From the NCBI RefSeq assembly GCF_001429185.1, contig NZ_LMIW01000010.1, forward strand, positions 62,001-126,000: a stretch of DNA of 64,000 bases. Reading direction: 5' to 3'. Below are positions 3,722 to 63,960 of the stretch, in pieces; within the stretch, counting starts at the first letter, position 1, and every line of letters begins with the position of its first letter. Source of the DNA: Terrabacter sp. Root85 (GTDB lineage: Bacteria; Actinomycetota; Actinomycetes; Actinomycetales; Dermatophilaceae). A model generated the notes under the pieces. The model saw only the letters and a list, made by a program, of their open reading frames with translations, did no database searches and was not told where the DNA came from. Made by a program: the position numbers and the translations under genes.

Positions 3722-3819
3722 CCCTGTGCGTTGAGTCATCCAGCGACCCAGCGTCCACCCGGCCACCGGCCGACCCGGCTGCCGGGGCGCTGAGTCACCT
3801 CACGGTGCAAGGCACAGGG
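3722..3819. repeat. Inverted repeat pair between convergent genes
   Basis: An 8-base inverted repeat, CCCTGTGC at 3722-3729 and GCACAGGG at 3812-3819, bounds 82 bases in the 199-base space between the convergent fumC and VOC genes. The loop is too long for a simple terminator. The inner segment also has GAGTCA at both ends. It could be a relic of a small repeat element or simply chance. Confidence 0.3.
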
Positions 3820-3911
3820 CGCACGGCGCAACCCGGCCACGTCGGCCGTGTGCACGGTGAAGGTCCACGGCTGACGCGACCCCGCTCGCCGAGCAGCGGG
3901 AGGTCCCGCGA

Positions 3912-4766
3912 TCAGCCGAGGAACTGGCTGACCGTGAAGACGGCGCCCTGCGGGTCGCGCACGACGGCGGTGCTCGTCCAGTCGCTGTCACCGGTGCGGA
4001 TGACGGACCCGCCGAGCCGCGCGACACGCGCGGCCGCCGCGTCGCGCTCGGCGACGGTGAACGTCACGTGCCAACCCGGCTCGGCGGCCGGTGCGACGGG
4101 CACGACCCAGCCGATGGCGTCGGCAAAGCCCGGTGGCACCCTCGCCCCGGACTGTCGCTCGTGGATGTCGGGGTCGACCGTCGAGGCGAGGTGGTCGCCG
4201 TAGCCGGGCACACGGATCATCGTGGCGAAGCCGACGTCGGCGAACTCCCAGCCGAAGGCCCGGGCGTAGAACTGCTGCGCGGCCGCGGGCTCGTCGGTGT
4301 GCAGGTCGCTGAAGTTCCAGGCACCCGGGACGTTGGTCACCTGCGAGCCCAGACGTCGCCTAGCCTCCCAGAGGCGCACCTCGAGTCCCTGCGGGTCGCG
4401 CACGACGGCCGACCGGCCACCCTCGCCGGCAGCCGTCGGCGGTTGGACGACCGCTCCCCCGGCCTCCTCGACGCGGCTGGTCGCGGACTCGGCGTCGTCG
4501 ACCGCGACGTAGGTGTGCCACCGGGGCGCTCCACCGCCATCACCACCGGCGTCCTCGGCCGCGGGTGTCGCGGGGCCGCCGAGCCCACCGACGTCCTGGC
4601 CGTCGAGCTGGGCGATGAGATAGCGGAACGGCACCCCCGGCGGGGTGGCCTCGGTGAACGTCCAGCCGAAGAGCCCGCTGTAGAAGTCGGCGGCGGCATC
4701 GACGTCGTCCTGCTCGGTGTCGACCCACGAGGTCACGCCCTCGGGGTAGGTCCTCTGCTCGGTCAC
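3912..4766 (-). CDS. Two-domain VOC (glyoxalase/bleomycin resistance fold) protein
   Basis: 284 residues with two tandem vicinal-oxygen-chelate domains (about 5-130 and 145-282). Both open with a TSWVDTEQDDVDAAADFYSG-like or NFSDLHTDEPAAAQQFYARA motif and end near a VVRDPQG.F motif. The arrangement resembles mycobacterial CFP30B-type proteins, whose reaction is not established; a lyase, dioxygenase or binding role is possible. I chose the GTG at 4766 because GAGGAGG lies 6 bases upstream and the protein then starts MTEQRTYPEGVTSW; a longer in-frame start at 4850 lacks such a site. Confidence 0.8.
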   Translation of the reverse strand: MTEQRTYPEGVTSWVDTEQDDVDAAADFYSGLFGWTFTEATPPGVPFRYLIAQLDGQDVGGLGGPATPAAEDAGGDGGGAPRWHTYVAVDDAESATSRVEEAGGAVVQPPTAAGEGGRSAVVRDPQGLEVRLWEARRRLGSQVTNVPGAWNFSDLHTDEPAAAQQFYARAFGWEFADVGFATMIRVPGYGDHLASTVDPDIHERQSGARVPPGFADAIGWVVPVAPAAEPGWHVTFTVAERDAAAARVARLGGSVIRTGDSDWTSTAVVRDPQGAVFTVSQFLG

Positions 4767-62082: not shown

Positions 62083-62283
62083 TCACGCGGTGTCGATGAA
62101 GGATGTCTGGAGGTACTTGTGCACCGCATCCTCCGGAACCCGGAAGGAGCGGCCGACGCGTACGGCCGGAAGGTCTCCGCCGTGGACGAGCCGGTAGACG
62201 GTCATCTTCGACACGCGCATGATCGAGGCGACCTCGGCGACGGTCAGAAACCGCACCTCGGCGAGCTGGCGCTCATTCGACAT
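62083..62283 (-). CDS. bldC: BldC-like helix-turn-helix regulator
   Basis: 66 residues. RFLTVAEVASIMRVSKMTVY is a MerR-type helix-turn-helix, followed by the wing RLVHGGDLPAVRVGRSFRVP. This is the excisionase/BldC family; in Streptomyces BldC binds DNA as head-to-tail filaments and times sporulation. In non-sporulating relatives the function is less clear. ATG 62283 gives the standard length; Rv0500A is the mycobacterial counterpart. Confidence 0.86.
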   Translation of the reverse strand: MSNERQLAEVRFLTVAEVASIMRVSKMTVYRLVHGGDLPAVRVGRSFRVPEDAVHKYLQTSFIDTA

Positions 62284-62467: not shown

Positions 62468-63784
62468 TCATGGCTCCAGACGGTGCAGGTCACGCGGGAA
62501 GAGGGTGACCTCGCGGATGTTCTCGGCACCCGTCAGCCGCCCGACCCACCTTTCCAGACCGATGGCGAACCCGCCATGCGGAGGCATGCCGTGGGCGAAG
62601 GCGTCGAGGTAGCCGGCCAGGACCTCGGGGTCGGTCCCGGTGCGCTCCATCGCCGCGGCGTAGTCCGAGGGCCGGTGCAGGCGCTGCCCTCCGGTCGTCA
62701 GCTCGAGCCCGCGGAAGAGCAGGTCGAAGCTGTTGCTCCACCGCTCGTCGCCCGGCTGAGGGTGCGTGTAGAAGGGCCGCTTGCCCATCGGATAGCCCTC
62801 CACCGCAAGGAAGTCCGAGCCGTATGCCGTCTTGGCCCACTCGCTGAGCGCGCGTTCGTGCGCGGGGCTGAGGTCGGGCTCGTCCGGGTCGGCGCCGACC
62901 TTCGCGAGGGCGTCGCTGAAGTGGAGGACGGGGAACTGCTCCGGCACCTGCGGCAGCTCCACGCCCAGGAGCGCAGCGGCGTCGGCGGCATACTCCCGGA
63001 TGCCCTCGACCATGCCCGCGATCGCCTCGCGCAGGACGGCGAGCACGTCGTGGTGGTCACGGATGAAGCCCAGCTCGGCGTCGAGCGAGGTGTACTGCGC
63101 GAGGTGGCGCACCGTGTCGTGCGGCTCGGCCCGGAAGACCGGACCGACCTCGAAGACCCGCTCGAAGACCCCGACGAGCATCTGCTTGTAGAGCTGCGGG
63201 CTCTGCGCGAGGTAGGCCGTGCGTCCGAAGTAGTCGACGGTGAAGACGTTGGCCCCCGACTCGGTGGCCGTGCCGACGAGCTTCGGGGTCGCGATCTCGG
63301 TGAACTCGAGGCTTCCGAGCGCAGCGCGGAAGCCTCGCATCGACGCGCTCGCGAGCTGCCAGGCAGCCCGGTGGCGCGGGTGGCGCAGGGTCACCGCCGC
63401 GTGGTCGAGGTGCGTGGGCAGCCCGGCGCCGAAGGTCGGGCGCCACAGCTCGGTGGGTGGCGCGACCGCCGGCTCGGTGAGCGCGGTGATCACCGGTTCC
63501 ACGAGCTCGGCACCGCCGGGGGCCGACTCGTTGGCCGACACGGTGCCGGTCACCTCGACGACGGTCTCCTCGGGCAGACCCGAGAGCTGGTCGACGGTCT
63601 CGCGGTCCTTGACGACGACCTGGGCCAGGCCCGAGCGGTCGCGCAGCACGAGGAACGTGACGCTCGCGAGGACGCGGCGCCGGTGGATCCAGCCGGCGAG
63701 CGTGACCCGCTCGCCGGGTTCGACGGACGCGAGGTCCCGCGCGAGCACGCGCGGAGCAAGGGTCGTGGGTTGGGTTGGTTGCAT
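62468..63784 (-). CDS. aspS: Archaeal-type, probably non-discriminating, aspartyl-tRNA synthetase
   Basis: 438 residues, the size of archaeal AspRS; bacterial AspRS is about 590 and has an extra insertion domain. Anticodon domain GWIHRRRVLASVTFLVLRD; class II motif 2 FRAEPHDTVRHLAQYTSLD; motif 3 GGFAIGLERWVGRL. The residue after GWI is His34, where discriminating archaeal enzymes have Trp, and the later PK pair is absent; these are marks of enzymes that also charge tRNA-Asn (used with GatCAB). ATG 63784 has GGAGGTG 6 bases upstream, inside the T-box sequestrator. Confidence 0.9.
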   Translation of the reverse strand: MQPTQPTTLAPRVLARDLASVEPGERVTLAGWIHRRRVLASVTFLVLRDRSGLAQVVVKDRETVDQLSGLPEETVVEVTGTVSANESAPGGAELVEPVITALTEPAVAPPTELWRPTFGAGLPTHLDHAAVTLRHPRHRAAWQLASASMRGFRAALGSLEFTEIATPKLVGTATESGANVFTVDYFGRTAYLAQSPQLYKQMLVGVFERVFEVGPVFRAEPHDTVRHLAQYTSLDAELGFIRDHHDVLAVLREAIAGMVEGIREYAADAAALLGVELPQVPEQFPVLHFSDALAKVGADPDEPDLSPAHERALSEWAKTAYGSDFLAVEGYPMGKRPFYTHPQPGDERWSNSFDLLFRGLELTTGGQRLHRPSDYAAAMERTGTDPEVLAGYLDAFAHGMPPHGGFAIGLERWVGRLTGAENIREVTLFPRDLHRLEP

Positions 63785-63925
63785 TCCGTTCACCTCCAGA
63801 GGGTTGGTGCCCCGGAGGTGTGGGCGATGGGGAATGTCGCTGTGCCACCACACCTTCGCCGCCGCGGATCGCGGACGGCCTCTGGTCGTGCTCGGCTCAG
63901 GATCGTCAGGCCCGTCGTCGCCGTG
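63785..63925 (-). promoter_or_regulatory. Candidate translational T-box riboswitch of aspS
   Basis: Minus-strand RNA order: possible Stem I GACGG(g)CC/GGCCGUC (63909-63916 with 63874-63880) closing a loop with a GAC codon at 63905-63907; Stem III CCGCG-AUC-CGCGG (63862-63874); antisequestrator A1 GGUGUGG/CCACACC (63848-63854 with 63817-63823), 7-base bulge UGGCACA (63841-63847; consensus UGGNACC), A2 GCGA/UCGC (63837-63840 with 63824-63827). The competing helix CACCUCC (63814-63820) with GGAGGUG (63791-63797) hides the ribosome binding site. Stem I shares one base with Stem III and is least certain. Confidence 0.65.
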
Positions 63926-63930
63926 CGCCA

Positions 63931-63960
63931 AGGGTAGGCGCTCAGCCCGCCGCCCACCAA
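63931..63960 (-). promoter_or_regulatory. Promoter of aspS
   Basis: Minus strand: -35 TTGGTG (63955-63960), 18-base spacer, -10 TACCCT (63931-63936). The start near 63925 gives a 140-base leader that would hold the T-box. Confidence 0.5.

Follow-up and report, generated by a model that had tools for sequence, protein, structure and literature searches.

The aspS2 locus and its leader

The window, meaning the whole 64,000-nucleotide stretch of Terrabacter sp. Root85 DNA that was analyzed, carries a gene for an aspartyl-tRNA synthetase (AspRS) preceded by a leader of about 140 nt, counted on the minus strand from the base of Stem I to the ATG. A sequence-only reading of this DNA had named an aspartyl-tRNA synthetase gene at this place. 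This holds, with the refinement that the gene encodes a second, archaeal-type AspRS (aspS2), the bacterial-type housekeeping aspS of the host lying on a separate contig. The product was matched by the NCBIfam family NF003483, "aspartate--tRNA(Asn) ligase", with 529 bits (cut-off 353), and by TIGR00458 with 348 bits, below that family's own cut-off of 368. Its best solved relative was the Thermus AspRS2 (1n9w), its closest loci were L049 and L017 (98% and 97% identity), and it is probably a non-discriminating AspRS. The next gene downstream of aspS2, at window 62083-62283 (minus strand), encodes a small helix-turn-helix protein, presumably BldC. An extra AspRS is described as common in Actinomycetales (PMC4206432). 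Microcin C-like compounds are described as targeting AspRS; a role of aspS2 in antibiotic resistance was considered, and the analysis gave no evidence for it.

The features of the locus, all on the minus strand, are the following:

63931..63936, minus strand: -10-like promoter element TACCCT, ending 7 nt before the basal helix
63893..63923, minus strand: ultrashort Stem I, basal helix CGGC/GCCG, K-turn-like GAC-GA...GA
63905..63907, minus strand: specifier GAC (Asp) in the apical loop, U before, G after
63880..63892, minus strand: 13-nt linker AGCACGACCAGAG in place of Stem II, its 3' end joining the purine motif that flanks Stem III
63858..63879, minus strand: Stem III hairpin GCCGUCCGCGAUCCGCGGCGGC
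63848..63855, minus strand: 5' arm of antisequestrator helix A1, AGGUGUGG
63841..63847, minus strand: T-box bulge UGGCACA, whose UGGC can pair with tRNA 5'-GCCA-3'
63824..63840, minus strand: antisequestrator helix A2, GCGA/UCGC, loop CAUUCCCCA
63816..63823, minus strand: 3' arm of A1, CCACACCU, overlapping the anti-Shine-Dalgarno
63814..63820, minus strand: anti-Shine-Dalgarno (anti-SD) CACCUCC, the 5' arm of the sequestrator
63810..63813, minus strand: GGGG, complementary to CCCC of the A2 loop, candidate second OFF-state helix (pseudoknot)
63791..63797, minus strand: Shine-Dalgarno (SD) GGAGGUG of aspS2
62468..63784, minus strand: aspS2, archaeal-type AspRS of 438 aa, ATG start codon 63784-63782

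The leader thus runs in the order Stem I, 13-nt linker, Stem III, GAA, A1, bulge, A2, anti-SD overlapping A1, and SD. Stem I, correctly anticipated as short or atypical, is an ultrashort hairpin at 63923-63893 with an upper helix of 3 bp (GGG/CCU) and a 9-nt apical loop, CCUGACGAU, that holds GAC; in relatives the apical loop, as parsed, measured 6-10 nt. The window leader is without an AGUA/AGAGA elbow-binding arm, and its linker is too short to hold Stem II with the IIA/B pseudoknot. The basal helix was invariant in 14 close leaders, so its support comes from distant leaders compared by eye, where other self-complementary helices took its place (GAGC/GCUC in L053, CACGG/CCGUG in L030, and GACGAGG/CCUCGUC in L037). 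In the close leaders, 4 of the 9 Stem III pairs were changed on both sides and 84.1% of cells were paired. The T-box discriminator motif RRRxG-Stem III-AA (PMC7583486) was present as AGAGG-Stem III-GAA, in agreement with the AA and Stem III hairpin that the sequence-only reading had placed before the antisequestrator.

The same reading had set a bulge between perfect helices of 7 and 4 bp; the bulge UGGCACA and the 4-bp A2 are as described, and A1 has 8 bp, not 7. The bulge matched 6 of the 7 positions of the UGGNACC consensus, and relatives had UGGCACC or UGGCACA, with UGGUACC in L060. The described overlap of the A1 3' arm with an anti-SD was likewise borne out: CACCUCC pairs with GGAGGUG over 7 bases and shares five bases with the A1 3' arm, which makes the antisequestrator and the sequestration of the SD mutually exclusive.

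Of 17 leaders examined, 14 had a TANNNT element 13-15 nt ahead of the basal helix, and L007, one of the three counted without it, has TACCCT on re-reading; the chance expectation in an 11-position window is 0.2-0.4%. Given how close this -10-like element lies to Stem I, the leader RNA probably begins at Stem I, with no room for a long arm upstream. Near or upstream of the aspS2 promoter in eight Terrabacter-type loci (L001, L017, L018, L020, L021, L022, L024, and L049), a stretch of about TCGCTCGCTGCGCTGCGTCCAGGCGACGCCGGCGCC recurred with variations and looks, by eye, like an interspersed repeat.

Orthologous leaders and comparison with Rfam

Fifty of 52 loci found were scanned, two short spurious matches being left out. 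The T-box bulge with its helices lay at the same place before 46 of these 50 aspS2 relatives and was absent at L059, L061, L064, and L065, the first two of which have incomplete N-termini. The relatives preceded by a T-box span Actinomycetota, Chloroflexota, Thermomicrobiota, and Bacillota. In the family sample, the T-box preceded aspS2 in 13 of 13 genomes with the gene, the window's included; in the class sample it did so in 21 of 21, where the antisequestrator model R2 had been trained on the leaders of 16 of the 21 genomes and on one identical to the window's.

No T-box match to Rfam was obtained in the window, and the element is therefore demonstrable only through its orthologues. At the gathering score, RF00230 matched 0 of 20 loci. 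Below it, the model aligned end to end with 5 of the 12 loci tried (L043, E = 9e-8; L057, 1e-7; L041, 1e-7; L027, 2e-6; L029, 0.025), at 28-49 bits against a gathering score of 93; the other seven, including the window's locus and the long-armed L016, gave no match even at E 1. The Rfam comparison proposed in the sequence-only reading thus failed on the window itself and succeeded, below the gathering score, on long-form orthologues. In four of these alignments (L043, L057, L041, and L027), AGUA, AGAGA, GAAGAC, and UGGCAC fell at the expected places, and the aligned antisequestrator of the matched orthologues equals that of the window almost base for base. The consensus of RF00230 has G-U at the base of A2, in contrast to G-C in 51 of 51 actinobacterial leaders. 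Across the whole host genome at E 10, the sole RF00230 match (16 bits, E = 0.5) lay before an ileS-like gene (L069). The current Rfam model misses the actinobacterial T-boxes of aspS and aspS2.

Judged by its orthologues, the element in the window is beyond chance, and the best reading of the aspS2 leader, which the analysis supports, is a translational T-box, as had been proposed. Two checks named beforehand, loss of the bulge in relatives and covariation among orthologous leaders, gave a UGGC bulge that was kept and helices A1 and A2 that covary.

Covariation and folding

Covariation was analyzed in 51 distinct actinobacterial rows, the Chloroflexota and Bacillota leaders being left out of the alignment. 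Over A1, A2, and a possible third helix, 90.3% of cells paired. Shuffles gave 84.7%, none of the 500 reaching the observed value, and slid registers gave 37-57%. Changes on both sides of a pair were found in 58 cells, compared to 19.1 in shuffles (0 of 500 as high), A1 and A2 accounting for 32 of them and the possible pseudoknot helix for 26. Pair types were no more numerous than in shuffles (15 versus 16.4; 488 of 500 as high). A1 was paired in 95% and A2 in 94% of cells, with compensatory changes in two pairs each. The A2 pair adjoining the bulge, the G-C already noted, occupies the position where a G-U is described as the primary steric sensor of aminoacylation (PMC7583486).

In folds computed without tRNA, the SD-sequestered form (-63.8 kcal/mol) was better than the antisequestrator form (-57.2) by 6.6 kcal/mol. 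The folding energy of the leader did not stand out (z = -1.44; 16 of 200 shuffles folded as well), and the proposed Stem I was missing from the unconstrained fold.

Among 49 distinct actinobacterial pairs, 47 showed complementarity between the A2 loop and the stretch directly behind the anti-SD, as CCCC/GGGG, GCCC/GGGC, UCCCUU/AAGGGA, or UGGUCU/AGGCCA; the exceptions, L110 and L116, had little of such a helix. A crude test of this complementarity in 33 distinct pairs did not reach significance (1178 of 5000 permutations did as well), and a duplex-energy test in the 49 pairs was marginal (788 of 20000 permutations), with mean energies of -8.39 kcal/mol for cognate and -7.95 for non-cognate pairs. 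In the MAFFT register, 76.5% of cells of this helix paired and its last pair was unpaired in 23 of 51 rows. With this pairing rate and the marginal permutation result, an OFF state in the form of an H-type pseudoknot, in which the A2 loop would pair with GGGG and the anti-SD with the SD, stays a suggestion.

Leader architectures and their history

Leaders were classed by eye from their sequences and motif positions, L056 and L060 being left unclassed and L059, L061, L064, L065, and L119 excluded from leader counts (L119, like L059 and L061, has no complete N-terminus at its match). The architectures were distributed as follows:

Long Stem I, Stem II present: 26 tree rows, Chloroflexota and many Actinomycetes
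Long Stem I without Stem II (group B): Nocardioidaceae and Intrasporangiaceae, 10 loci
Short Stem I, Stem II present: L110
Short Stem I with a small hairpin replacing Stem II: 12 Microbacterium/Nocardioides-type loci
Short Stem I with another small hairpin replacing Stem II: L035, L042, and L103
Short Stem I with a short linker only: the window and its relatives, plus L053

At the position of Stem II, a small hairpin of about GCGCGUCCGGCGUNACCGACGAGAGG was seen in L030-L033, L037, L038, L066, L100-L102, L104, and L111 and also in housekeeping aspS leaders; the conservation of its sequence suggests that it makes a separate contact. L110 (G125) is an Asp T-box with the hexaloop CAGACA; as judged by eye, it has Stem II and an F-box-like stretch and would combine Class III anatomy with Asp specificity.

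In the AspRS2 tree (69 rows, 68 of them different), 39 of the 40 leaders classed as lacking Stem II grouped in a single clade (support 100/99), the exception being L053. Within this clade, leaders with a long and with a short Stem I were interleaved. The 13 family rows, including the window, made up one short-Stem I clade (100/99), L015 paired with the long-armed L016 (93/98), and the Microbacterium/Nocardioides types were placed elsewhere in the clade. The well-supported branches force at least two changes for the window's group, at least two for the Microbacterium/Nocardioides group, and at least three for the long Stem II-less group; several forks placing L011, L015, and L016 were weak. With the long form present in the Chloroflexota outgroup, the simplest reading is that Stem II would have been lost first and Stem I then shortened repeatedly. 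Compared with L011, the short form of the window resembles the long form minus everything between the K-turn and the specifier. In L110, Stem I was shortened and Stem II kept.

Every one of the 37 short leaders, 33 of them distinct, had GAC within a hairpin loop, with U before it and a purine after it, as counted with scripts that searched for GAC and, in one default pick, for UGAC. When the base before GAC was left free, U stood in the top hairpin of 35 of the 37, another hairpin outscoring the U-GAC hairpin in L009 and L042. This constancy bears on the possibility that the short form is a decayed T-box, a long ancestor having lost its tRNA-binding arms and left a fixed ribosome-site hairpin free of tRNA control. 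Such decay would agree with the loss of both grip elements and with the change of the bulge end from ACC to ACA in Terrabacter and its kin. We nevertheless consider it improbable: beside the retained U-GAC hairpin, the UGAC loop, Stem III purines, UGGCAC, and A2 were invariant in 14 distinct close leaders in which Stem III itself varied, and short forms occurred in several parts of the tree and persisted in many genera.

Distribution of the T-box

Of the 59 family genomes, 13 encoded AspRS2, as did 21 of the 394 class genomes, the host's own genome being counted in both and the loci of different samples overlapping in part (same genome twice). Model R2 gave 25 strong matches in the class sample (E <= 2e-6; next 0.015): the 21 AspRS2 genomes, the housekeeping aspS of G009 and G010, a divergent archaeal-type AspRS of 38% identity in G236, and a serS-like gene in G279. 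The narrower model R1 matched 18 of 394 genomes, including G009, G010, and G236. In the family sample, R2 matched 24 of 59 genomes strongly (E <= 9e-10; next 0.001), namely, the 13 with AspRS2 and 11 without it.

In all of these 11, which lay outside the R2 training set, the T-box stood just upstream of the housekeeping aspS, a gene that shared 79-83% identity, across the compared part, with the housekeeping aspS of Terrabacter sp. Root85. A short Stem I hairpin with a UGAC loop was found in the housekeeping leaders L179, L180, L181, L183, L184, L185, L186, L187, L189, L147, and L153, with only U or A considered before GAC. In the host itself, UGGNAC[CA] was absent from the roughly 1.7 kb before the start of the housekeeping aspS (locus L002).

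The T-box of G279 (L160) precedes the serS-like gene, whose first 120 aa matched serS with 39 bits, under the whole-protein cut-off. It has Stem II, the bulge UGGCACC, and, by eye, the specifier UCC, and reads as an actinobacterial Ser T-box. The plasmid search returned one copy, on a Rhodococcus megaplasmid, with a short-form leader and an AspRS2 of 65% identity. On contig C895 of G065 (L119 and L122), a T-box at 139-255 precedes a split aspS2, with the N-terminus extending to about 540, the rest at 3723-4739, and about 3 kb between, the result of either an insertion or an assembly fault. T-boxes of aspS2 in Chloroflexota, Thermomicrobiota, and Sulfobacillus-like Bacillota were seen at L039, L040, L044-L047, L051, L054, L055, L058, L063, L056, and L060; several of these leaders (e.g., L045) end, by eye, in terminator-like hairpins with U runs.

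tRNA recognized by the leader

The host tRNA-Asp (L098) has the anticodon GUC, A37, and G73, as read by eye, and the host tRNA-Asn (L086) also has G73; 30 of 48 tRNA matches were scanned for identity, and further tRNA-Asp or tRNA-Asn genes may exist. The variable base C of the bulge is complementary to G73 of the host tRNA-Asp, as the sequence-only reading had supposed from the discriminator base. With G73 common to both tRNAs, this base cannot tell them apart, and the switch had accordingly been called Asp/Asn. Its Asp part is upheld by the codon and its Asn part is not: the specifier GAC in the apical loop, together with the host anticodon GUC, would make the switch choose tRNA-Asp rather than either of the two. 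In long-form leaders, GAC occurred in the context (G)AAGAC in 37 of 38, with AACGAC in L055, in a count made with AAGAC and AACGAC patterns.

A switch that reads tRNA-Asn, or both tRNAs, would suit the metabolism of the host and the fit of UGGC to G73 of tRNA-Asn. GatB is encoded in the genome and AsnRS was not found, the own-genome search with AspRS2 yielding, apart from AspRS2, just the bacterial aspS and a LysX-like gene; with no AsnRS found, Asn-tRNA is probably made by transamidation. The His and Pro of AspRS2 (GWIH and APGG), which we take to be marks of a non-discriminating AspRS, align with the Thermus non-discriminating AspRS2. A two-codon T-box is also on record, by title, for Clostridium acetobutylicum, where Saad 2012 and 2013 reportedly describe Asn-linked, two-codon T-boxes on extra aspS/gatCAB. 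That system is similar in that a T-box governs an additional AspRS gene belonging to the tRNA-dependent Asn pathway; it differs in belonging to a Firmicute and in being, by title, Asn-linked and two-codon. One of the three aspS genes of C. acetobutylicum is described as carrying a T-box (PMC2494555). Recognition of tRNA-Asn is nonetheless very unlikely here, as GAC is common to the long and short forms and AAC overlaps it in a few loops only (e.g., L031 and L066), the window loop not being among them.

The sequence UGACR may pair with U33-A37 of tRNA-Asp over 4-5 bp instead of 3, which is suggestive only. The idea that the U before GAC compensates for the lost Stem II was weakened by two loops. 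The leader of L069 (G000:C8:448677-448774), a T-box with UGGUACC before the ileS-like gene of the same genome (gene named by eye), keeps Stem II, by eye, and still reads UAUCA in its specifier loop; L110, with a short Stem I and Stem II, has A at the position before the specifier.

Proposed mechanism and relation to known T-boxes

We hold with high confidence, on comparative grounds, that the leader is a translational T-box that would sense tRNA-Asp and turn on the second AspRS when this tRNA is uncharged. When the tRNA is charged or absent, the 3' arm of A1 and the bases that follow it (CACCUCC) would pair with the SD and keep translation off. Uncharged tRNA-Asp would be held at two points, its anticodon at GAC in the apical loop of the ultrashort Stem I and its 3' GCCA at UGGC in the bulge; the docked tRNA would stabilize A1/A2, remove the anti-SD arm, and free the ribosome site. 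Binding of the tRNA, the response to its charging, the direction of control, and operation without an elbow-binding arm or Stem II are what we infer from the conserved anatomy. That the region is instead coding, aspS2 starting upstream at a TTG (63931) and the conservation reflecting an N-terminal extension, is hardly credible, for although the reading frame is open through the leader, a perfect SD lies at the right distance from ATG 63784, A1 shows compensatory changes, and the specifier-to-bulge distance of 60 versus 61 nt among orthologous leaders, a single-base difference, means that the frame is not kept.

T-boxes are described as forming at least four classes, in which tRNA binding is strengthened by an elbow-binding motif, Stem II, or both, and none of the described classes is without both (PMC10482949). 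Class III, described from Nocardia farcinica ileS (PMC10482949 and PMC7583486), is the closest in outline: it is actinobacterial and translational, switches between sequestrator and antisequestrator, and has a short Stem I with no elbow-binding motif and the specifier in its apical loop, all of which the window shares. It differs in its apical loop of 5-6 nt, its required Stem II (S-turn and IIA/B pseudoknot), and its Ile specificity, compared to a 9-nt loop, no Stem II, and Asp in the window. Class II (Bacillus subtilis glyQS) likewise has no Stem II and joins Stem I to Stem III by a linker, but has a long Stem I with an elbow-binding motif, is reportedly glycine-specific, and is generally transcriptional; the ten group B relatives have Class II-like anatomy with a GAC specifier and are translational by appearance. 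Second synthetases under T-boxes are also found in B. subtilis (thrZ and tyrZ), and the T-boxes of the spare synthetases thrZ, tyrZ, and lysK are transcriptional and of the long form. These systems are similar to aspS2 in that a spare synthetase beside another is under T-box control and differ in the amino acids concerned. The lysK gene of B. cereus is described as an inducible second synthetase under a T-box (PMC2916919).

What appears new is the anatomy, a Stem I reduced to a K-turn-like base and a 9-nt UGACG loop with no elbow-binding arm, and a 13-nt linker replacing Stem II, whose absence, passed over in the sequence-only reading, would be the unusual part. A truncated Stem I without Stem II is described as having barely detectable tRNA affinity, and Stem II as essential only for A-U-rich codons (PMC7583486), so that GAC may do without it. 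Whether the short form represents a fifth architectural class, a functional tRNA-Asp switch that lacks the elbow-binding arm and Stem II alike, is in our judgment evenly balanced. In such a class, the tRNA would be held by a loop-loop pairing of 4-5 bp (UGACG with U33-GUC-A37) and by the UGGC:GCCA contact, and the OFF state might be the pseudoknot considered above.

If this is true, a natural and conserved form that lacks the elbow-binding arm as well as Stem II would show how small an RNA can be and still read a tRNA. For dissecting the role of each part, the leaders of one orthologous gene would offer a natural series in which both, the arm alone, Stem II alone, or neither is present. The literature search found no published report of an actinobacterial aspS T-box, although TBDB entries are possible. 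Actinobacterial T-boxes would thus widen from ileS, the gene named in the literature searched, to aspS and aspS2.
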